This document shows positions 38,283 through 59,570 of a DNA stretch of 64,000 bases, in pieces. The translations under genes and the position numbers were made by a program. The stretch covers positions 248,001 through 312,000 of the forward strand of contig NZ_JAAGOA010000001.1 of the NCBI RefSeq assembly GCF_010550675.1. Direction: 5' to 3'. Under the pieces are notes generated by a model. That model was given only the letters and a program-made list of their open reading frames with translations, was not told the origin of the DNA and made no database searches. The stretch is from Phytoactinopolyspora halotolerans (GTDB taxonomy: Bacteria; Actinomycetota; Actinomycetes; Jiangellales; Jiangellaceae). Position 1 is the first letter of the stretch. Each line of letters opens with the position of its first letter.

Positions 38283-40922
38283 ATGCTGCGCACCACGGTA
38301 AGGCAGATGCGCGCGCACCTGGGCCGGCTGATCGCGGCCGGGGTGGCGATCACCATCGCGAGCGCGTTCGTGACGGCCACATTGCTCAGCACCGGCGTGA
38401 TCGAGCGGACGGTGCACAATGCGGTGCTGACCGCGTACGGGGGCGCGGACGTCATCGTCGACGGTCCGGACATCCCGGCGGATGCTCTTGACGACGTCCG
38501 CTCGATACCGGAGGTAGCCGGAGCCGACGGTCGGGTGATGGCTCCGGTGACGCTGCGCACCGGCGCGCGTTCCGATTACCAGGCCGCGGCGCCGATACCC
38601 GGAACGCCCGAGCTTCAGATTGAATTGTCCGACGGCGCGTTCCCGGACCAGCCCGGGGAGATCGTGGTGTCCGAGCCGACGGCGAAGCGACTCGATCTCG
38701 ACGTCGGATCGTCAGTCCAGGTCGGGTTCGACTCGTGGACACCGGACGGTGGTTGGGCCGAGGAGAGCACGACGGTCACCGTCTCCGGGATATCCGTCGA
38801 CCCGGGAGCCGCGTTCGACTCGGACATCCCGGGCGTGCTGGCCGACGTCGCGGACGTGCGGGACTGGTCCACGCCGGGCGACGACGGCATGACCTACGAA
38901 AAGCTGATGGTGGTCGGCGACGCGAACGTGTCCGACGCGGAGCTGGTCGAGAGGGTGCGTCCGGCGCTGGACCAGGTGAACGCCGAGGTGCTGACCGCGG
39001 ACGAGTACGCCCGGGAGGTGACCGCGGAGTTCACGTCGGGGACCTACCTGCTCAGTGCCGTGCTCGCCGGGTTCGGCGCGGTCGCGCTGTTCGCCGCGGG
39101 GATGGTCATCTCGAATACGTTCGCCGTCCTGGTGGCGCAGCGCACCCGGAACCTGGCTCTGCTGCGCTGTGTGGGTGCCACCCGGCGACAGGTGCACCGC
39201 GGGGTCCTCGCGGAAGCCACGCTGACCGGCGCTGTGGCGTCGCTGCTGGGATTGGGCGCGGGATTGGGGCTTGCGCAAGCCGCGGTGGCCGTGTTGAACC
39301 AGGTGTCCGGTGCCTCATGGCTACCGGACAGCGTGCCGGTGCCGCTCATCGCCGTGGTGGTGCCGCTCGTGACCGGCACCGGCGTGACCGTGCTCGCCGC
39401 GCTCTCGCCCGCGCGGGCCGCGACCCGGGTGGCGCCGCTGGCGGCATTGCGGCCGCTGCTGCCGCCGGCGTTCCGGTCCAAGGCCTCGCGCCGTCGTATC
39501 GCGATCACCACTGCGCTGCTCTTGACCGGTGGCGCGTTGCTGGCGCTGGGCACCGTCATGGCGTCCGGCGGAGCGAGCGTGGGGTTGGCGCTGGCCACCG
39601 GCATGCTCGGCGGTGCGGTGTCGTTCCTGGGCGTGGTGGTCGGCGCGGTGGTGATCGTGCCACCCGCGGTGGCCGCGCTGGGGCGTCTGTTCGCCCGGGT
39701 GGGCGGCGTGCCGGCTCGGATGGCGGCCGCGAACAGCGTGCGGCACCCGCGCCGGACCGCATCGACGGCTGCCGCCTTGCTCATCGGGGTCACCTTGGTG
39801 GCGATGATGTCGGTGGGTGCGGCGTCGACCCAGGCCACGCTCGACGACGAACTCGACCAGCGATATGCGGTCGACATCTCGGTGGGTCAGGAACCGGTCT
39901 GGCCCGGGATGGGCGAGCTCCGCGCCGAACCGGAGTTGTCCCGGGCAGCCGCGGAGGCGGCGGGCGGGATCAGTGGCGTGACCGGCATGGTCGCGCTGCA
40001 TGGTGTCCGCGCCACGGTGGCACCGGTCGGCGCGGGCGAGACAGCCGAGACGGCCGGAACGGATGTGAGTGTGCACGGACTCGATCCGGACGCCGCCCGC
40101 AGAGTGGTGCGTTCGGAGTCCAGCCTCAGCGAGCTGGCATCCGGGACGGCGGTCGTGCCGACGAGCATCGCCGACGACCTCCGGGTGAGTACGGGCGACA
40201 CGATCACGGTGAGCAGCGGCGACACGCGTGGTTCCGGGGGTACGGCCGGCACAGACGGCACGGGCGGCTCGTCGATCGAGCTCGACGTCGCCGTCGCCCC
40301 CGTGCCGGATTCGGCGGTGCTCGTCACCGAGCAGGACCTGTGGGCACTGGACACGCAGCCCCCGCTCACCCGGGTGTGGCTGGGGCTGTCGGAGACGGCC
40401 GACCCCGGTGTGGTGATCCGCGACGTGCAGGACGCGGTGAGCCTGGCGGTGGGGTCGGATCAGTCGGTTCCGGTGGACGGGGCGGCCGCGGAGCGCGCGG
40501 AGATCTCGGACGTGCTGGACACCATGCTGGCCGTGGTCACCGGTCTGCTCGCGGTCGCGGTGCTGATCGCGCTGATCGGTGTGAGCAACACGCTGTCGTT
40601 GTCCGTGATCGAGCGCACCAGGGAATCGGCCACGATGCGGGCGCTCGGCCTGACCCGGCGGCAGCTCCGATCGATGCTGGCGCTCGAAGGTGTGCTGGTG
40701 GCACTGGCCGGAGCCATCTTGGGGATCGGGCTCGGTCTGGTCTACGGGTGGCTGGGCACGGCGACGACGCTCGGCGCCGTGTGGGAGACACAGCTCACCG
40801 TGCCGTGGGCCAGGCTCGCGGCGATCGTGGTGATCGCGATCCTGGCCGGCCTGGTGGCGAGCGCACTTCCCGGGCGCCGGGCCGCGAAGGCGGCTCCGGT
40901 CGCGGCGCTCGCGGCGGAGTGA
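38283..40922 (+). CDS. FtsX-family ABC transporter permease (two-repeat type)
   Basis: This is the 879 aa membrane subunit of the exporter. The layout is TM1 (about 15-40), a long extracytoplasmic domain (about 42-250), three TMs (about 255-385), four or more hydrophobic segments around 400-470, a second extracytoplasmic domain (about 490-755), and three final TMs. FtsX cores occur twice: AVLVAQRTRNLALLRCVGATRRQ and SLSVIERTRESATMRALGLTRRQ. Actinobacterial members of this kind export peptides or lipids or confer resistance to membrane-active compounds. Stop at 40922 is followed by an 11 bp stem terminator-like hairpin. Confidence 0.94.
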   Translation: MLRTTVRQMRAHLGRLIAAGVAITIASAFVTATLLSTGVIERTVHNAVLTAYGGADVIVDGPDIPADALDDVRSIPEVAGADGRVMAPVTLRTGARSDYQAAAPIPGTPELQIELSDGAFPDQPGEIVVSEPTAKRLDLDVGSSVQVGFDSWTPDGGWAEESTTVTVSGISVDPGAAFDSDIPGVLADVADVRDWSTPGDDGMTYEKLMVVGDANVSDAELVERVRPALDQVNAEVLTADEYAREVTAEFTSGTYLLSAVLAGFGAVALFAAGMVISNTFAVLVAQRTRNLALLRCVGATRRQVHRGVLAEATLTGAVASLLGLGAGLGLAQAAVAVLNQVSGASWLPDSVPVPLIAVVVPLVTGTGVTVLAALSPARAATRVAPLAALRPLLPPAFRSKASRRRIAITTALLLTGGALLALGTVMASGGASVGLALATGMLGGAVSFLGVVVGAVVIVPPAVAALGRLFARVGGVPARMAAANSVRHPRRTASTAAALLIGVTLVAMMSVGAASTQATLDDELDQRYAVDISVGQEPVWPGMGELRAEPELSRAAAEAAGGISGVTGMVALHGVRATVAPVGAGETAETAGTDVSVHGLDPDAARRVVRSESSLSELASGTAVVPTSIADDLRVSTGDTITVSSGDTRGSGGTAGTDGTGGSSIELDVAVAPVPDSAVLVTEQDLWALDTQPPLTRVWLGLSETADPGVVIRDVQDAVSLAVGSDQSVPVDGAAAERAEISDVLDTMLAVVTGLLAVAVLIALIGVSNTLSLSVIERTRESATMRALGLTRRQLRSMLALEGVLVALAGAILGIGLGLVYGWLGTATTLGAVWETQLTVPWARLAAIVVIAILAGLVASALPGRRAAKAAPVAALAAE

Positions 40923-52250: not shown

Positions 52251-53171
52251 TCACCGGATCGTGACTTGCCGATTCGCCAGCCCGGCGCGGGCGCGTCGCT
52301 GTGCCCCGTCGAGCGGCGTCGTGTCGGCCACCGCCTCGGCCAGTCGCTTCTCCATGGCGGCGACCGGTTCCTCCACCTCCGCGGCCTCGGTACCGTCCGG
52401 CAGGTCCCAGACGGGCACCAGCAAGCCGTGTGCGCGGAACGTGCCCAGCAGACGCGTCCCGGGTGCCAGCACGTCGTCGCCGCGCACATGCAGCCGGGAG
52501 AGCGCATCCAGCAGCGGTTCTTCGTCGTAGGGAAGCACCCAGCGCACCTGGTCGCGGTCGCCGAGCCGACACCAGTACGCGGCCTCCGCGCTGGACAGCC
52601 TGGCAGTGGGCACGACCGCCTCGTTGGCCGACTCCAGAAGCGAACTCTCCTGAGCCGTGGGCTCTGAGTCCGGGTCGGTCCAGAAGTCGAACCCTTCGTG
52701 GACGGTCACCTCGAACGGCGATTCCTCCGCCACCAGATCCTGCAGGCGCGGTGCATCCGCCGGCCGCGGACCGACCGTCACCGGAGCGCCCGGCTCGGCC
52801 TCAAGGGCCGTGCTGAGCGCGTGTCCGAGATCGGCGCTCGGGTCGCCGCTGGACGTGACGGTCTGCAGACCGAGCAGCACCTGCCCGTTCTCCCGCACCA
52901 ACGCGGGGTAGGCACCGGGCAGGACGGTGGCGACGACGACGTCCCGGTCGGCGTGGGGGGCACGCAGCCGGATCGGCACCGTGGCGGCCGAGACGATCTC
53001 GCGGAGAGCCACCCAGTCGCACTCGCCGGGCAGGCCCTGAAACGGGCGGGTGACGTGGCGGCGTCCGGCTGCCTTCGCCTTCTTGCCGTGACAGACCTTG
53101 TATCGCTTGCCGGAACCACACGGGCAGGGCTCGCGCGGACCGACGACGGGAATCTCTACGCTTGCATTCAC
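52251..53171 (-). CDS. SEC-C motif protein of the DUF5926 family
   Basis: The product is 306 aa. The N-terminal SEC-C zinc-binding motif, PCPCGSGKRYKVCHG (residues about 16-30), has the C-x-C-x8-C-H pattern also found at the end of SecA. The rest matches the DUF5926 family seen throughout actinobacteria; a possible metal or nucleic-acid binding role is not proven. The central region is acidic (residues 165-190, WTDPDSEPTAQESSLLESA). GTG start at 53171; the gene is followed on the minus strand by the terminator hairpin. Confidence 0.9.
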   Translation of the reverse strand: MNASVEIPVVGPREPCPCGSGKRYKVCHGKKAKAAGRRHVTRPFQGLPGECDWVALREIVSAATVPIRLRAPHADRDVVVATVLPGAYPALVRENGQVLLGLQTVTSSGDPSADLGHALSTALEAEPGAPVTVGPRPADAPRLQDLVAEESPFEVTVHEGFDFWTDPDSEPTAQESSLLESANEAVVPTARLSSAEAAYWCRLGDRDQVRWVLPYDEEPLLDALSRLHVRGDDVLAPGTRLLGTFRAHGLLVPVWDLPDGTEAAEVEEPVAAMEKRLAEAVADTTPLDGAQRRARAGLANRQVTIR

Positions 53172-53182
53172 GAGTACAGAGA

Positions 53183-53641
53183 CTAACTCGCGTTACCCGG
53201 CTCCCACGGCCCGACGACGGCTTGTACGGTCACCCGATCGTCGGCGGAACGGACGGACCAGTTGCGCGCGACGGCCTCGACGATGGCCAGACCGCGCCCT
53301 TCTGGTTCGGCGGACTCGGGCCGCTTGACGCGTGGCGTGTCCGCGCTGCCGCCGTCCGTCACGTCGATGAGCACGTGCCGATCACTCACCGTCCACCGCA
53401 GAATCACCCCGACCTCTGCCTCGCTGAGCTGGATCGGCTTGGCGTGCAGGATCGCGTTCGAGACGAGCTCGGTGACGACGAGCAGCACGTTGTCCAGCAC
53501 GCTTTGCGGCACCCCAACGGAATGGAGATCCGCGGCCACCGCATGGCGGGCCTTGGGTACGCTGCTGACGACGTTTCCCAGCTCGAGGGCGCGTGCCTGG
53601 GTCGGTTCGGCCGAGCGGTAGGCGGTCGCGGTCTGAGGCAC
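53183..53641 (-). CDS. Anti-sigma-type ATP-binding protein (HATPase_c_2)
   Basis: This is a single-domain kinase-like ATPase related to RsbW/SpoIIAB anti-sigma factors (152 aa). The N box is VVTELVSNAILHA, G1 is VDVTDGGS-like (IDVTDGGSADTP), and G2 is EPEGRGLAIVEAVA. In actinobacteria many such proteins partner with STAS-domain anti-anti-sigma factors and SigB/F-type sigma factors, none of which is in the window. The GTG at 53641 is chosen because GGGAGG lies 8 nt upstream; the frame is open to 53716. A GTTT-N16-GGGCA sequence lies upstream. Confidence 0.9.
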   Translation of the reverse strand: MPQTATAYRSAEPTQARALELGNVVSSVPKARHAVAADLHSVGVPQSVLDNVLLVVTELVSNAILHAKPIQLSEAEVGVILRWTVSDRHVLIDVTDGGSADTPRVKRPESAEPEGRGLAIVEAVARNWSVRSADDRVTVQAVVGPWEPGNAS

Positions 53642-54074
53642 TGGTGCGCCTCCCTTCGAGCTGTCGATGTGCGCTGCCGTCCGTGTGCATTGGTGCCCGC
53701 TCAGCGGTCCGGTCAAACCTCAAGAGGCGCACTGTTCGAAGACAGTTGCATCTGTAGCACGGGTACAGCGCGTGCCATCTGATCTGAGAAGAATAGTGAC
53801 AATGACCACTTTGTCGAGATTGCCGGAAGCAACCTTTCCGCATATTGAGACGGTCATCGACTTTTTGTACAAGAAAATAGTTGTCGGCGGCGACGGCTGC
53901 CAAAGGCTCTCAAAGTACCGGCTCACCTGCGGATCCAGGTTTCTCGCCGACCGGCATGGCGATGCCGTTTGTCCATCCGCGATGCCCTCATCGCCTACAT
54001 ATGTCCCGCAGACCTCACAGCATCCTTACGTAACCGGGGGGTTGGGCGCTAGGTTAAGCACCGGGGCGGAGAGG
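53642..54074. other. 433 bp divergent intergenic region, locally AT-rich
   Basis: Between the anti-sigma ATPase and the globin-reductase genes lies sequence that is clearly richer in A/T than the surroundings (53745-53905, for example GAATAGTGACAATGACC and TTTTTGTACAAGAAAATAG). Minus-strand GTTT (53718-53715) and GGGCA (53698-53694) with a 16 nt spacer resemble the GTTT-N14-16-GGGTA sites of SigB/SigF-type factors, which would suit an anti-sigma gene. Open frames in this stretch are short and lack homology features, so I see no gene. Confidence 0.5.
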
Positions 54075-55616
54075 ATGACGATGTGGACTCACTCCCGGAC
54101 AGCGGGGAAACGGGAAACCACGGCACGCCATGTGGAGGATGCCGCGGCAGAGGGGTCGGAGCCGGGTGCGCCCGGCCTGGCGCCGGCGAGTCCTGCCGAC
54201 GAGAACACGCGTGTCGACGGAGATCGCTTTGGTGGTGACGCGCCGCAGGTCGGCAACGGTATGGTTGCTTCCCATCCAGCCCACAGGGGTGCGGAACACC
54301 CGTGGTCGGACGGCACAGTCAATGGGGTTAGTCATGAGCAGTCCAATGGGCCGCTCGCGGCGGTACCGAATGCGGTGGAAACCGCTGCGGAATACGAGGC
54401 AGGTGAGTTGACGTCGCCACCCGAGCCCGAAGGGCCGGTGCCCGAGTCACAGCAAACCACTGATGCGCCGGCCCGACTTCACCCGGTGCCCAGCCATCCG
54501 CTGGGATTCGACTCGGTTGCGCTGCGGGCCACGATCACCCTGGCCGACGGCCGTCATGACCAGCTTGCCCAGCGGTTCTACGCCAACCTCTTCGCCAGTA
54601 ATCCGGAGCTCCGCGACCTCTTTCCCGCCAGCATGGAGACGCAGCGCTCTCGACTGGTCTCGGCGTTGATCCGGATCGTCGGAAGTGCCGAGAACCGCGA
54701 GGACCTGGTCGCCTACCTGGAGGGACTCGGCCGGGACCACCGGAAGTTCGGCGTGATCACGGAGCACTACGCACCGCTGGGATCCGCCCTGGTCCTCGCC
54801 TTCCGGCAGGAGCTCGGCGAGCAATGGACCGAACGGCATGAGAAGGCCTGGATTCAGGCGTACGACACGATGGCGATGATCATGGCGGAGAGCGCCGAGC
54901 GAGACGCCGTCATCTCGCCGGCATGGTGGGATGCCGAGGTCGTCTTCCATCGTCGCCTGCTTGATGATCTGGCCATCATCCAGGCCAGGCCACACACGGA
55001 TTATCCGTACCGTCCGGGTCAGTACGCCTATGTGATGTCGCCCCGGCGCCCGAAGATGTGGCGTGCTTACTCGATGGCTTCGGCGCCTCGGGACGACGGC
55101 CTGGTCGAGTTCCACGTGCGTGCCGTCGGTGCGGGCTGGGTCAGCAGTGCGCTGGTGTGGCGGACCGAGGCCGGAGATGTGCTGCGGCTCGGCGCACCAC
55201 AGGGTTTCGACCTGGCCAATCCGCGGTCGGAGCGTGACCTGCTCTGTATCGCGGGCGGTGTTGGGATCGCTCCCATCCTCTCTGGCCTCCAGGAACTGGA
55301 GCAACGCCTGGATGGACGCCGGGTGCACGTGTTCTATGCCGGGCGTGACCGCGACAGCCTGTACGCGTTGCCGCATCTGGAGTCGATCGGCGTGCGCTAC
55401 CGGCGCCTGACCGTGGTGCCGGTGGTGTCCCCGGACGGGCCGGAAGACCGCAGTCCGGATCTGATGGGCAACATCGTCTCGGCATACGGGGACTGGCGGG
55501 AGCATGACGTCTACCTCGCCGGGCCTACCCGCATGGTGCAGGCCGCCCTGGATCGGCTTCGAGAGCAGCAGATTCCCGAAGAGCAGATCGTCTGCGACGA
55601 CTACGGCACCTGGTAA
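54075..55616 (+). CDS. Globin-reductase fusion (flavohemoglobin-like)
   Basis: This is a two-domain haem and flavin protein (513 aa) with an NO-dioxygenase-like layout. Residues 1-about 140 are low complexity and likely disordered. The globin domain (about 145-275) includes SNPELRDLFPASME and proximal His in GRDHRKFGVITEHYAPLG. The ferredoxin-reductase part has the FAD motif RAYSMAS, and NADH-binding GGVGIAPI, followed by VYLAGPTRMVQA and a C-terminal DDYGTW. Flavohemoglobins detoxify nitric oxide; the long N-terminal tail is unusual. ATG at 54075 or 54081 follows GGAGAGG; the frame extends far upstream but without a matching domain. Confidence 0.9.
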   Translation: MTMWTHSRTAGKRETTARHVEDAAAEGSEPGAPGLAPASPADENTRVDGDRFGGDAPQVGNGMVASHPAHRGAEHPWSDGTVNGVSHEQSNGPLAAVPNAVETAAEYEAGELTSPPEPEGPVPESQQTTDAPARLHPVPSHPLGFDSVALRATITLADGRHDQLAQRFYANLFASNPELRDLFPASMETQRSRLVSALIRIVGSAENREDLVAYLEGLGRDHRKFGVITEHYAPLGSALVLAFRQELGEQWTERHEKAWIQAYDTMAMIMAESAERDAVISPAWWDAEVVFHRRLLDDLAIIQARPHTDYPYRPGQYAYVMSPRRPKMWRAYSMASAPRDDGLVEFHVRAVGAGWVSSALVWRTEAGDVLRLGAPQGFDLANPRSERDLLCIAGGVGIAPILSGLQELEQRLDGRRVHVFYAGRDRDSLYALPHLESIGVRYRRLTVVPVVSPDGPEDRSPDLMGNIVSAYGDWREHDVYLAGPTRMVQAALDRLREQQIPEEQIVCDDYGTW

Positions 55617-55671
55617 GCCGGACGCTCGACGGCCAGCTCCGTGGCCGCCGTTTGAGGTCGTTCTCGCGCCC

Positions 55672-55687
55672 TCTAGTCGTATCTAGT
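55672..55687. promoter_or_regulatory. Pair of TCTAGT sites downstream of the AAA ATPase gene
   Basis: TCTAGT occurs at 55672-55677 and 55682-55687, a 10 bp period. CTAG is rare in this GC-rich sequence, and the same motif is clustered on the other side of the ATPase gene (56961-57044). A TTATAC box follows on the plus strand. Confidence 0.4.
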
Positions 55688-55743
55688 CTCACGCTTATAC
55701 GGCGGTAGACACACGTAGCGGACGTCCAAGCCGCCTCTGGCGC

Positions 55744-56940
55744 CTAGGTGGTGGCGTGCTGACGCAGGTAGATGCCGAAGTGTGGGACGGTGAAGGCGAT
55801 GGTTCCGCGCTCTGCGGAGTAGATCAGTCCCTTCTTGATCAGCGAGTCGCGTGCGGGGGACAACGAGGACGGTTTGCGGCCGAGCTGGACGGCGACGTCC
55901 GAGGTCGCGACCGTCCCGTCGACCTCTCCGGACAGGCTGGCCATCGCCTGCAAGTACTCCCGCTCGGCGGGCGTCGCGCGCTCATACCTGGAGCCGAAGA
56001 ACCCGACCGCCAGCTCCGCCTCGGCGTCCGGGGCGGCGACCCGGACATCGTCCGCCGTGATCGGCACGGCCGGAGCATGGTCCCAGGTGACCTTGCCGTA
56101 CGCCTGGACGAAATACGGGTAACCCTCGGTAGCGGTGTACAGCGCGTCGAGCGCCTCCTGCTCGTACTCCACGCCTTCCTCGGCGGCCGGCGCGACCAGT
56201 GCGAGGTCGGCGGCGTCCCGGTCGAGGCGGTCGATCCGCACATACCGGAACAGCCGCTCCGAGTACGACTTGGAGGCTGACAGCACGGCCGGCAGATGGG
56301 GCAGGCCGGCGCCCACCACCACCAGCGGCAATGCCTGCTGCGACAGCTCGTGGCACGCCGCGCAGAGCGCGGAGACATCCGTCGGCGGGATGTCCTGCAT
56401 TTCGTCGACGAACACGGCGATGCCGACGCCGACATCCCGCGCGACCCCGGCCGCGTCGACGAGCAACTCGACCAGATCGACCTCGATGTCGCCGGTATCC
56501 GCACGGCCGGAGGCGGCGGCCACGTCGATCCCCGGATGCCAGCGATCGCGAAGCTTGGCGCCGTCAGCCGCGGACTTGAGGGCGAACGCCTTCAGGACGG
56601 AGAGAAACTGGTCGACCTGCTCGGGGTCACGGTGCCGGGGTGTGAGCTCCCGTACGGCCATGTGCAGAGCGCTGGCCAGAGGTCGACGGATCGACTGATC
56701 CGGCCGTGCCTCGATCTTGCCGGTTCCCCACAATCGCCGGATCGCCTGTGACCGCAGCGCATTCAGCAGAACCGTCTTGCCGACTCCGCGCAGGCCGGTC
56801 AGCACGAGCGACCGCTCCGGCCGGCCGCGTGCGATCCGTTCCAGGACCACATCGAACTGCTGCAGTTCGCGGTCGCGGCCCGCAAGTTCGGGTGGGCGTT
56901 GACCTGCGCCAGGCGCATAGGGGTTGCGTACCGGATCCAT
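55744..56940 (-). CDS. AAA ATPase with C-terminal winged-helix-like region
   Basis: This is a P-loop ATPase of the AAA_16/archaeal-ATPase type (398 aa). Walker A is GLRGVGKT (49-56), Walker B is VFVDEMQDIP (Asp179, Glu180), and sensor 1 lies in LPLVVVGAGLPHLPAVL. A middle lid region ends in TEGYPYFVQAYG. The C-terminal 75 residues (YLQAMASLSG through GRKPSSLSPARDSLIKKGLI) have the helical pattern of a winged helix. No partner gene is fused. It stands alone, flanked on both sides by clustered TCTAG sites that it could bind (inference). Function unknown; relatives take part in mobile-element or defence systems. Confidence 0.88.
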   Translation of the reverse strand: MDPVRNPYAPGAGQRPPELAGRDRELQQFDVVLERIARGRPERSLVLTGLRGVGKTVLLNALRSQAIRRLWGTGKIEARPDQSIRRPLASALHMAVRELTPRHRDPEQVDQFLSVLKAFALKSAADGAKLRDRWHPGIDVAAASGRADTGDIEVDLVELLVDAAGVARDVGVGIAVFVDEMQDIPPTDVSALCAACHELSQQALPLVVVGAGLPHLPAVLSASKSYSERLFRYVRIDRLDRDAADLALVAPAAEEGVEYEQEALDALYTATEGYPYFVQAYGKVTWDHAPAVPITADDVRVAAPDAEAELAVGFFGSRYERATPAEREYLQAMASLSGEVDGTVATSDVAVQLGRKPSSLSPARDSLIKKGLIYSAERGTIAFTVPHFGIYLRQHATT

Positions 56941-56960
56941 TGTCGGATGTTATCGGGCTT

Positions 56961-57044
56961 TCTAGTCCAGGCGCTAGACCGCTCTAGATTGGGGCATCGT
57001 CGTGCCGCTCGATATTTCTTCGCTTCTCTAGTCGCTGAGCTAGA
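56961..57044. promoter_or_regulatory. Clustered TCTAG operators upstream of the AAA ATPase gene
   Basis: Two palindromes of the form TCTAG-N8-CTAGA lie at 56961-56978 and 57027-57044, with an extra TCTAGA at 56983-56988 between. Their centres are 66 bp apart, about 6 turns. A plus-strand TATACT box (57051-57056) is preceded at 17 bp by the CTAGTC half of the second site, so binding there would also affect rightward transcription. Confidence 0.6.
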
Positions 57045-57238
57045 TGACGCTATACTCCCCCAGACTCCGCTCCTCGACTGCAGCAGTGGCGGCGCACAAG
57101 CGGCAGTGGGTGAGGTTGTTTGGGAGCGTTACCAGCACGTTTCGTAGACATCCTATGACTGGGATGGAACTGACGGAGGCTTCCGTGATTGAATCGGCCT
57201 GAACCCCTCGAAACGTCCGATGTTCTGGAGTGCCGAAC

Positions 57239-57254
57239 GTCGAAGCGCTTCGAC
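57239..57254. promoter_or_regulatory. LacI/GalR-family operator
   Basis: GTCGAAGCGCTTCGAC is a perfect palindrome with the central GCGC and GAAGCGCTTC core typical of LacI-family operators in carbohydrate loci. It lies 32 bp before the binding-protein ATG. The repressor gene is not in the window. Confidence 0.7.
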
Positions 57255-57285
57255 CGACGCCGATGTCAACGAAAGGACGTCACCT

Positions 57286-58620
57286 ATGGCACGCCTCACG
57301 AGCGCGACCACGCGCGCGGGCCACCCATCCCGCCGGTATGCCGGTGTGACAGCCGTGGTCGCGGCCGCGGCCCTGGCGCTGGCTGCCTGCGGATCGGATG
57401 ATGACGACGAAGGCCAGGCAGCAGCCGGTGATTCAGGGCCGGTGACGCTCGAGTTCTGGGGCTGGGTTCCTGATGTTGAGGCCGCGGTGGAGGAGTGGAA
57501 CCAGGCGAACCCAGACATCCAGGTCAACTTCACAAGGATGACCGGCGACGACGGTGACAAGATCCCGTCCGCGGTCGACGCGGGCACCGGGCCGGACATC
57601 GCACAGATGAGTCAGCATCAGCTTCCGGACTATGTGATCAACGAGCGCGTGATCGACATCAGCGAATACGTCGCGGATGCCGAGGATCTGTTCACGGAGA
57701 GCTCGTGGGCGGCAGTCGAGTTCGCCGACGCCATCTACGGCCTTCCCCAGGACAGCGGTCCTGCGGCGATGATGTACCGCACCGACATCTTCGATGAACA
57801 CGGCATCGAGGTGCCGGCCACATGGGACGAGTACGTCGAGGCCGGGCGGAAACTGCAGCAGGCCGATCCAGACGTGTACATCGGTCAGTTCTCTCCGAAC
57901 GAGATGGGCCTGTGGTACCAGGACATGGTGCAGGCCGGCGGGAGCTGGTTCGGCATCGACGGTGATTCCTGGACGGTGTCGATCAACGACGAGGCCGGCC
58001 GGCAGGTCGCGGACAAATGGCAGACGCTGGTCGACGAAGAGCTGGTCAAGACCGTGCAGATGTGGACGCCCGAGTACTGGGCCGACATCAACAACGGCAA
58101 CATCGCGACCATCACCTACGCCGCATGGTTCCCCGCCCTGCTGAAGGAGAACGCCGCTGACCTGACCGGGCAGTGGGCCGTGGCACCGGGGCCGGTCTTC
58201 GAAGGCTCGGACGCCGCAGGCGACACCGGAGGTGCCGTGACGGCGGTGATGGCGGGTGCCGAGCACCCTGAGGCCGCGTCCGCGTTCATCACGTGGTTGA
58301 ACAGCTCCGAGGAGGGCGTCGACCACCTGGTCACCGGCGGCGGCATCTTCCCGGCGGCCAAGATCGGCCTGGAGAACGAGGAACTGGTACAGCCGGACGA
58401 GTACTTCGGCGGCCAGGAGATCCTCGAGGTCTACAAGGAGGCGGCGCTTCGGGTGCCCGGCGATAACCAGGAAGGTCCTGGATACCAACTGATCCAGAAC
58501 GACCTGCTGGACGGTTTCGCGCAGGTGGCCAACGGCAGCACCACGTTCAGCGAGGTCCTCGACGAGGCCCAGGAGAACACCGTTCAGCGCCTGAGTGACC
58601 AAGGGCTCAGCGTCAAGTGA
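57286..58620 (+). CDS. Sugar ABC transporter substrate-binding lipoprotein
   Basis: This is a family 1 (MalE/UgpB-type) extracellular binding protein (444 aa) anchored as a lipoprotein. The N-terminus has a Tat-like twin-Arg region (SRRYAGVTAVVAAAALALAAC) and lipobox LAAC. An acidic linker (GSDDDDEG) precedes the mature domain with VTLEFWGWVPDVEAAVEEWN, and AGTGPDIAQM, AIYGLPQDSGP, GNIATITYAAW, AAGDTGGAVTAVM are typical of the family. The 5' palindrome at 57239-57254 suggests LacI control. The stop overlaps the first permease start (GTGA). The sugar is likely an oligosaccharide, given the GH genes. Confidence 0.95.
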   Translation: MARLTSATTRAGHPSRRYAGVTAVVAAAALALAACGSDDDDEGQAAAGDSGPVTLEFWGWVPDVEAAVEEWNQANPDIQVNFTRMTGDDGDKIPSAVDAGTGPDIAQMSQHQLPDYVINERVIDISEYVADAEDLFTESSWAAVEFADAIYGLPQDSGPAAMMYRTDIFDEHGIEVPATWDEYVEAGRKLQQADPDVYIGQFSPNEMGLWYQDMVQAGGSWFGIDGDSWTVSINDEAGRQVADKWQTLVDEELVKTVQMWTPEYWADINNGNIATITYAAWFPALLKENAADLTGQWAVAPGPVFEGSDAAGDTGGAVTAVMAGAEHPEAASAFITWLNSSEEGVDHLVTGGGIFPAAKIGLENEELVQPDEYFGGQEILEVYKEAALRVPGDNQEGPGYQLIQNDLLDGFAQVANGSTTFSEVLDEAQENTVQRLSDQGLSVK

Positions 58621-59570
58621 GTGCGGCCACCGCATCCACGGCAAGCCGTACCCGCCCCCGCCGCCGTCTGCGCGGCGGCGGCGGGGGCGGCGAACGGACC
58701 GCGCCGTACGTCTTCCTCGCGCCGTTCGTGCTGCTGTTCATCGGCTTCCTGGTCGTGCCGATCGGGCTGGCGATCTGGAACAGCCTGCACACCGTCCGGC
58801 GCAGTGGTCTGGGATTCGGCTCCGCGAGTGAGACCGTCTTCACCGGCCTGTCCAACTACACCGAGGCTTTGACCGATGCGGAGTTTCTCGCGGGCCTCGG
58901 CCGGGTCCTGCTCTACGGCGTCGTGCAGGTGCCCGTCATGCTCGCCCTGGCGCTCACGCTGGCCTTGCTGTTCGACTCCGCCGCCGTGCGGTTCAAGCGG
59001 TTCCTCCAGCTGAGCGTCTTCCTGCCGTACGCGGTACCGGCGGTCGTAGCCGCACTGCTCTGGGGCTTCCTCTACCAGCCGCAGGTGAGTCCCGTCGTCG
59101 ACGTGCTGCGTTCGCTCGGGGCCGACCCGGACTTCCTTGCGCCCGGAACCGTGCTCTGGTCGATCGCCAACGTCACGGTCTGGTCGGTGACCGGCGTCAA
59201 CATGATCATCATCTTCTCCGCATTGCAGACCGTGCCGCGGGACATCTACGAGGCTGCGCGGATCGACGGAGCCGGCGAGTTCCGCACCGCACTGCGGATC
59301 AAGATTCCGATGGTGGCGCCGGCGATCATCCTGACCGCGCTGTTCTCCGTCATCGGCACGCTCCAGCTGTTCAACGAGCCGATGGTGATGCGGTCGGTCA
59401 CCTCCAACGTCTCCAGCGAGTACACGCCGAACATGATGATCTTCTCCACTACCACGCAGGGCGGGAACATCAACCTGGGTTCGGCGATGGCGATCTTGCT
59501 GGGCCTGGTGACCTTCGCGCTCTCGGTGGCGGTCTCCGTGGCGTCGAACCGTCGAGGAGGGAAGCGGTGA
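58617..59570 (+). CDS. Sugar ABC transporter permease (MalF/UgpA type)
   Basis: This is the first membrane subunit of the importer (317 aa, six main helices). Key segments are PYVFLAPFVLLFIGFLVVPIGLAIW and the EAA loop EAARIDGAGEFRTALRIKIPMVAP that contacts the ATPase. The first 25 residues are Arg/Gly-rich (RGGGGGGE), encoded by a GC-only hairpin (58652-58690). GTG at 58617 overlaps the binding-protein stop; its own stop overlaps the second permease start. The importer lacks a dedicated ATPase here, as is common in actinobacteria, where a shared MsiK-type ATPase serves several importers. Confidence 0.95.
   Translation: MSAATASTASRTRPRRRLRGGGGGGERTAPYVFLAPFVLLFIGFLVVPIGLAIWNSLHTVRRSGLGFGSASETVFTGLSNYTEALTDAEFLAGLGRVLLYGVVQVPVMLALALTLALLFDSAAVRFKRFLQLSVFLPYAVPAVVAALLWGFLYQPQVSPVVDVLRSLGADPDFLAPGTVLWSIANVTVWSVTGVNMIIIFSALQTVPRDIYEAARIDGAGEFRTALRIKIPMVAPAIILTALFSVIGTLQLFNEPMVMRSVTSNVSSEYTPNMMIFSTTTQGGNINLGSAMAILLGLVTFALSVAVSVASNRRGGKR
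58652..58690 (+). promoter_or_regulatory. 15 bp GC hairpin at the start of the permease gene
   Basis: CCGCCCCCGCCGCCG (58652-58666) and its perfect complement (58676-58690) form an all-GC stem with a 9 nt loop, 32 nt after the binding-protein stop codon. In malEFG-like operons hairpins after the binding-protein gene lower expression of the permeases and protect upstream mRNA; this one is inside coding sequence. Confidence 0.65.

Follow-up and report, generated by a model that had tools for sequence, protein, structure and literature searches.

An actinobacterial AAA+ ATPase gene with conserved TCTA dyads at its own locus, fairly near dnaA, probably encodes an autoregulator

STAND ATPases have become known mainly as immune receptors and as regulators that respond to signals. 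Short solo proteins with a P-loop core, a lid and a C-terminal winged helix are represented by the archaeal proteins SSO1545 and PABY2304, which we take to be MNS-clade STAND ATPases of the ATPase_2 type (PF01637) and for which we know of no described DNA sites. AAA+ and winged-helix domains are also combined in the archaeal Orc1/Cdc6 initiators, the genes of which have ORB repeats alongside. The ParB-parS system consists of a nucleotide-binding protein and palindromic sites that cluster in the origin region and in part occupy gene gaps kilobases apart; ParB is a CTPase, and its fold differs from AAA+. MalT-like regulators and IniR combine a STAND-type ATPase domain with a DNA-binding domain. 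According to the report on IniR, this protein of 818 aa has a MalT-like sensor domain, an ATPase domain that its authors likened to SSO1545 and a DNA-binding domain likened to that of SdiA, and acts on iniBAC (PMC5760070). A literature search that covered few subscription journals returned no described DNA target of the solo winged-helix STAND ATPases with solved structures, and no description of the ATPase gene analyzed here, its dyads or its near-origin arrangement; the fold of the protein is known, and it is the arrangement of gene, dyads and origin for which that search found no description.

The analyzed stretch of DNA comprises 64,000 nucleotides (the window, with positions counted from its first letter) of a Jiangellaceae-like host genome of 7.3 Mb. 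It contains a solitary ATPase gene (Table 1), the nearest named relatives of which are found in Phytoactinopolyspora, Haloactinopolyspora and Jiangella with 88–91% identity. Pfam assigned the protein to AAA_16 (PF13191; 74.9 bits against a curated cut-off of 32.6), which was also matched at E≤0.01 by 41 of 41 aligned relatives, while the score for ATPase_2 was below the Pfam threshold (19.7 against 33.2 bits) and 22 of the 41 relatives matched this model at E≤0.01. The Pfam matches were confined to AAA/ATPase domains, with no ParB or CTPase domain among them. Both Walker motifs are intact and hardly vary among relatives. An AlphaFold2 model of the ATPase (mean pLDDT 93.7) contains a predicted C-terminal winged helix, in agreement with a previous reading of the letters without database searches (hereafter the sequence-only reading), which had described the C-terminus as winged-helix-like. 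In a fold search with the predicted model, PABY2304 (2qen) was the top match (Z 24.6, rmsd 4.0, 324 aligned residues) and SSO1545 (2fna) the second (Z 22.7, rmsd 4.1, 327 aligned residues), followed by Aeropyrum pernix Orc2 (Z 20.9) and NLR-type STAND proteins (Z 16–19). The modeled fold is thus shared with ATPase_2/MNS-clade STAND proteins across the whole protein, including the core, the lid, the winged helix and the short solo architecture, although the identity to SSO1545 and PABY2304 is only 15–18% and the ATPase scores under the cut-off of ATPase_2 and over that of AAA_16. Unlike IniR, the ATPase has 398 aa, a predicted winged helix-turn-helix (wHTH) and sites at its own locus. A structured RNA at the locus was dropped as a candidate, with no Rfam match at positions 53000–59000 and no tRNA at 40000–64000.

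Table 1. Features of the ATPase locus (positions within the window)
Feature	Position	Strand	Basis or score
AAA+ (AAA_16) ATPase, predicted C-terminal winged helix, 398 aa	55744..56940	-	ORF, Pfam, AlphaFold2 model
ATPase motifs: Walker A GLRGVGKT; Walker B FVDEMQD; predicted wHTH at ~residues 340-385			
-10-like TAACAT, ends 6 nt before ATG, overlaps O1	56947..56952	-	predicted leaderless promoter
O1, promoter dyad, four half-sites TCTAG-N5-TCTAG-N8-CTAGA-N7-ATAAC	56949..56988	-	score 14/16
O2, second upstream dyad around TCTAGTCGCTGAGCTAGA (core 57027-57044)	57015..57056	.	score 14/16
O3, downstream dyad, between convergent ATPase and flavohaemoprotein-like genes	55672..55709	.	score 15/16

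CTAG is depleted in the window, with 22 occurrences against 66 expected from shuffles, and eight of the 22 fall at positions 55673–57043. The sequence-only reading had noticed this gathering of a rare tetranucleotide at the ATPase locus and had pointed out two upstream copies of TCTAG-N8-CTAGA, which are exact (56961–56978 and 57027–57044), plus a half-site, which is present at 56983. The TCTAGT pair that it had placed downstream is present at 55672–55686, but belongs to the larger four-half-site dyad O3 and is not a mere pair. In the entire 7.3-Mb genome (G000), TCTAG-N8-CTAGA occurs twice, both times beside the ATPase gene, compared to 11 occurrences of the reversed control pattern. Looser CTAG patterns elsewhere in the genome yielded, among the matches listed, tandem repeats as well as scattered pairs and triples; these include a tandem repeat of the 18-bp unit CTAGGAGCGGAAGGCCGG at G000:C4:163573-163684 and a separate loose CTAG cluster at G000:C4:208279-208371.

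Orthologues with approximately 70% identity or more carry a conserved unit close to TCTAN-N5-TCTAN-N8-NTANA-N7-ATANA, in which four half-sites approximately one helical turn apart form a dyad of about 40 bp. Of 87 distinct upstream regions (92 minus five identical ones, with the split G002 copy, L007 and L008, left out), 85 reached a dyad score of at least 12 out of 16, compared to 0.33% of 17,400 windows taken from these loci as background; the 85 of 87 are neither independent nor free of circularity, because some of the scored loci had served to draw up the pattern by eye and many of the regions belong to close relatives, while the background windows and the whole-genome counts are independent of this derivation. 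In 73 of the 85 regions, the dyad covers the -10 element and starts at -48 to -50, the same distance from the start codon as O1. The remaining 12 regions, from Rhodococcus and three f4 genomes, have the dyad just upstream of the -10 element, with a start at -68 to -80. The motif TANNNT was present 6–9 nt before the start codon in all 87 orthologue regions, compared to 34 of 8414 positions drawn at random, and a leaderless transcript is predicted on this basis. Upstream of the dyad, GACACG was detected in 79 of the 87 regions (76 of 4118 background windows), for example approximately 20–30 bp before the promoter dyad at L013; this element was not found in the genome of the window.

When CTAG alone is counted, Streptosporangiaceae seem site-free upstream, where the half-sites of their dyad are mostly TCTAC or TCTAA. 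The promoter dyad of G317 (L025) has a score of 13, though the exact core is missing from that genome. With the 300-bp flanks on either side of the gene taken together, at least three CTAG were present at 72 of the 80 named loci, and none of the 80, two of which have a short flank, had zero. Downstream alone, at least three CTAG within 300 bp were found at 56 of the 80 loci, compared to 2 of 1087 background windows, and CTAG-to-CTAG spacings below 33 bp at the 80 loci were 10, 12, 20, 22 or 32 bp, with a single 13. A conserved dyad with the appearance of an operator is thus present at the gene's own promoter, which is the pattern of an autoregulated DNA-binding protein. By eye, Streptosporangiaceae loci such as L029 and L054 show a -10-like element (TAGATT or TATATT) after the second downstream dyad, approximately 100–150 bp past the ATPase stop codon and pointing into the end of the neighboring gene, which is a possible antisense or small-RNA promoter. 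A REP-like palindrome with TGATCATGAACAC-like arms recurs upstream of the ATPase gene at L009, L010 and L011, with variant arms at L011, and was not found in the window at up to two mismatches.

The sites are largely confined to the surroundings of the gene. In 17 further orthologue-bearing genomes, 20 of 22 copies of TCTAG-N8-CTAGA were located no more than about 16 kb from the gene, compared to 288 matches of the reversed control; the exact core was absent from G317, and G318 and G320 contained one copy each elsewhere. Five stretches of 400 kb from five families, each containing dnaA and the ATPase gene, had 16 dyads scoring at least 14, all within approximately 16 kb of the gene, and the rest of these five genomes was covered with the exact core. 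Both the 17 genomes and the five stretches were picked because the gene is present. An ordinary regulon was rejected as an explanation, as no dyad with a score of at least 14 was located beyond about 16 kb from the gene in the five 400-kb regions. Ten further regions of 38–40 kb round the gene contained 25 dyad matches scoring at least 14 (shuffle mean 0), some of which are two registers of one array; 20 lie within 1.5 kb of the gene and five, at three places, 5.7–9.8 kb away. One of these ten regions, that of G064, had no such dyad within about 20 kb of the gene. Seven sites that were viewed in two genomes are located upstream of gene starts, downstream of genes or in gaps between convergent genes. 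The scanned neighbors of the gene differ between families, indicating that the sites are tied to the ATPase gene rather than to a neighbor. At Jiangella anatolica L012:4240-5909, an AbiEi antitoxin gene (Pfam AbiEi_4/AbiEi_1) and the next ORF lie between the ATPase gene and the downstream dyad array, which stays beside the apparent 3' end of the flavohaemoprotein gene. Both outcomes that the sequence-only reading had named as refuting were looked for, and neither occurred: other parts of gene-bearing genomes do not reach the motif frequency seen at the locus (two of two copies beside the gene here, 20 of 22 near it in the 17 genomes), and homologues do not lack the sites.

The exact core alone is not diagnostic for the ATPase gene. 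In a phylum sample of 296 genomes, nine with an orthologue of at least 70% identity and 287 without, the core was detected in 59 genomes, mostly once, and 52 of these lack such an orthologue. Among the nine orthologue-bearing genomes, the core is located beside the gene in G000, G196, G053 and G247 and 5.8 kb away in G218. In G137 and G264 it occurs on contigs other than that of the gene, and G064 and G086 lack it.

Sequence alone cannot prove which protein binds, and a separate, unlinked DNA-binding protein might own the dyads and control the ATPase gene. We consider this improbable, since it is the less economical explanation for nearly all sites of a genome being at one locus, for their conservation across families and for half-sites that apparently track the ATPase. 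The latter point comes from distant members of the family (30–48% identity, many of them on plasmids), which have other palindromes in the same upstream place. An upstream palindrome was significant (p≤0.05) in 12 of 29 distant members, compared to 2 of 28, 1 of 28, 0 of 29 and 1 of 29 control windows, with 100 shuffles per test window and 30 per control window; the significant palindromes start at approximately -39 to -64, and 17 of the 29 members had none. Two pairs with near-identical recognition helices have common half-sites (L103 and L105 CTTTATT, L106 and L107 CTTATC), a hand-picked observation. These palindromes and helix/half-site pairs fit the ATPase itself as the binder, and we infer its role as binder and autoregulator from them together with the site confinement, the dyad geometry, the differing neighbors and the predicted fold.

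The best reading, which we consider likely on these grounds, is that the ATPase binds the dyads cooperatively and controls its own promoter within a patch at its own locus. The C-terminal winged helix of this STAND/ATPase_2-like AAA+ ATPase would read TCTA half-sites, and their spacing of about one helical turn in dyads of approximately 40 bp would allow cooperative binding by a dimer or larger oligomer. A complex at O1 would cover the predicted leaderless promoter, so that the protein would adjust its own expression, probably by repression, with the ATP state or oligomerization acting as the switch. Dyads on the far side of the gene and in nearby gene gaps might be drawn into this complex through looping or clustering, and the outcome would be a nucleoprotein patch confined to the ATPase's own locus. 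Sites as remote as 5.7–16 kb are a poor fit to simple promoter control.

The sequence-only reading had likewise proposed a self-regulating ATP-dependent DNA-binding unit, and on sequence evidence we retain that part of its interpretation in which an ATPase with a predicted C-terminal winged helix, flanked by private sites upstream and downstream, probably regulates itself. Its further suggestion, a mobile or defense-like module bracketed by recombination or operator sites, would be compatible with the patchy distribution in the phylum, where 34 of 296 genomes have a homologue at E≤1e-30, and with the presence of the family on plasmids (113 of 72,556 records). In this clade, a mobile unit was rejected because presence, absence or copy number do not vary: a single ATPase locus was found in every one of the 22 Jiangellaceae genomes. 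Apart from that, the orthologue at G002:C24:51933-53140 is in two frames with a split at approximately residue 138, either a sequencing error or a broken gene. No recombinase was detected by Pfam among nine neighboring proteins, one of which had no family. A known anti-phage defense system was rejected as well, as PADLOC gave six weak matches, all within residues 40–88 (best E 0.0014, residues 41–88), and none across the protein. Phage cargo was dropped because the viral-contig scan revealed no relative and the sole phage-labeled record is an unverified fecal contig; this 5.9-kb 'Bacteriophage sp.' record (L162, MT837995.1) encodes a 71% identical homologue and may be a bacterial contig. Altogether, we regard a mobile or defense module as very unlikely. 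The dyad arrangement of about 40 bp, the sites kilobases away and the location fairly near dnaA go beyond that reading.

The distance to dnaA was sought for 17 of the 80 named loci, hand-picked mainly for long contigs and with L172 left out for its size; the identity of their contigs was checked by length. In all 32 of 41 genomes that have both genes on one contig, the orthologue is located approximately 41–527 kb from dnaA, with the one-contig requirement favoring short distances; in the remaining nine, the two genes are on different contigs and the orthologue is unplaced. Seven single-contig genomes are free of this bias and have distances of approximately 60–195 kb, where the value for G064 assumes a circular chromosome. 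The largest distance, 527 kb, belongs to Rhodococcoides fascians. The side and strand of the locus relative to dnaA vary between families. As a control for synteny, 221 G000 ORFs more than 45 kb from dnaA were compared with the oriC stretches of four other families (E<1e-25, 60% coverage). Of the 220 ORFs other than the ATPase, 179 had a homologue in none of the stretches, 24 in one, 15 in two, two in three and none in all four, corresponding to 60 of 880 ORF-by-region pairs. Since the stretches were chosen to hold the ATPase, its own presence in them is given in advance, and the informative result is the low figure for the other genes. It indicates that gene order past the oriC core is poorly kept and that the position of the ATPase gene is not due to blanket synteny; the retention of the ATPase gene itself is outside this control. 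Homologues of the neighboring flavohaemoprotein in 16 non-Jiangellaceae genomes were on the dnaA contig in seven and on other contigs in nine, and one of those seven genomes (G196) has the homologue within 300 kb of dnaA. Distant relatives of the ATPase were placed on the dnaA contig in 6 of 17 genomes, 39–200 kb from dnaA in G013, G076, G259 and G234 and far from it in G081 and G211, and were unplaced in 11. G064 contains a pair of family members with 76% and 45% identity to the query (G064:C1:2973174-2974358 and 3005893-3007050), about 32 kb apart; on a circular chromosome, both would be approximately 90–120 kb from dnaA.

Origin-proximal, clustered palindromic sites, as in ParB-parS, are thus present in the placeable genomes, and this proximity could reflect gene dosage only, which is the modest answer; a parS-like role in the origin domain is the bold one. 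In the bold reading, which we regard as possible and rather doubtful, the ATPase would load at the dyads and build or move a nucleoprotein complex in the origin domain with an effect on segregation, compaction or replication timing, and self-control at the promoter would be secondary. The distances to dnaA in the 32 one-contig and seven single-contig genomes speak for it, as do the variable side, strand and scanned neighbors and the low general synteny at this distance from oriC. Extra dyads up to 16 kb away, in differently oriented gene gaps, add to this. However, the comparison regions hold the ATPase by construction, the one-contig rule favors short distances, nine of 41 orthologues are unplaced, Rhodococcoides fascians is far out, and the distant relatives are near dnaA in four and far in two of 17 genomes. 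In addition, most sites are within 1.5 kb of the gene, 262 of the 296 phylum genomes lack a match, and gene dosage alone could explain the proximity. In contrast to ParB-parS, the protein is an AAA+ ATPase. With the same reserve, a STAND-type AAA+ ATPase might be the loader or center of a centromere-like complex in a chromosome-maintenance system, of which the distant plasmid members, each with its own palindrome, would be plasmid-borne versions. Two features would tentatively accord with such a maintenance function, namely that the dyads are nearly absent elsewhere and that the locus is kept tens to hundreds of kb from oriC despite changes of replichore, strand and neighbors.

The similarity to Orc1/Cdc6 raises the question whether the locus is an archaeal-type second origin, at which an Orc1/Cdc6-like initiator would act on ORB-like repeats. 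An AAA+ domain with a winged helix, the A. pernix Orc2 match in the fold search and inverted repeats adjoining an initiator-like gene would agree with this. However, the ATPase scored 19.9 bits with the orc1/cdc6 model TIGR02928 (cut-off 181.3), the GC-skew of G000 changes sign near dnaA, approximately 120 kb from the ATPase gene, and no 50-bp window at positions 55501–57400 exceeds 50% A+T. In G196, the GC-skew change is blurred between dnaA and the ATPase gene. An archaeal-type origin at this locus is therefore unlikely, and we give this explanation hardly any weight.

Autoregulation by cooperative binding of the ATPase at its own locus is accordingly the reading that we prefer. Comparison of genomes supplies a precise predicted target, and with the half-site geometry and the promoter at hand, binding, ATP-dependence and autoregulation are directly testable. 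An origin-near ATPase with private sites points, on the sequence evidence, to an undescribed self-controlling and possibly chromosome-organizing system. A parS-like function, if true, would be categorically new. Since the distance to oriC is kept in the placeable genomes despite changes of neighbors, replichore and strand, the ATPase and its dyads may represent an unrecognized origin-region system in several actinobacterial families.
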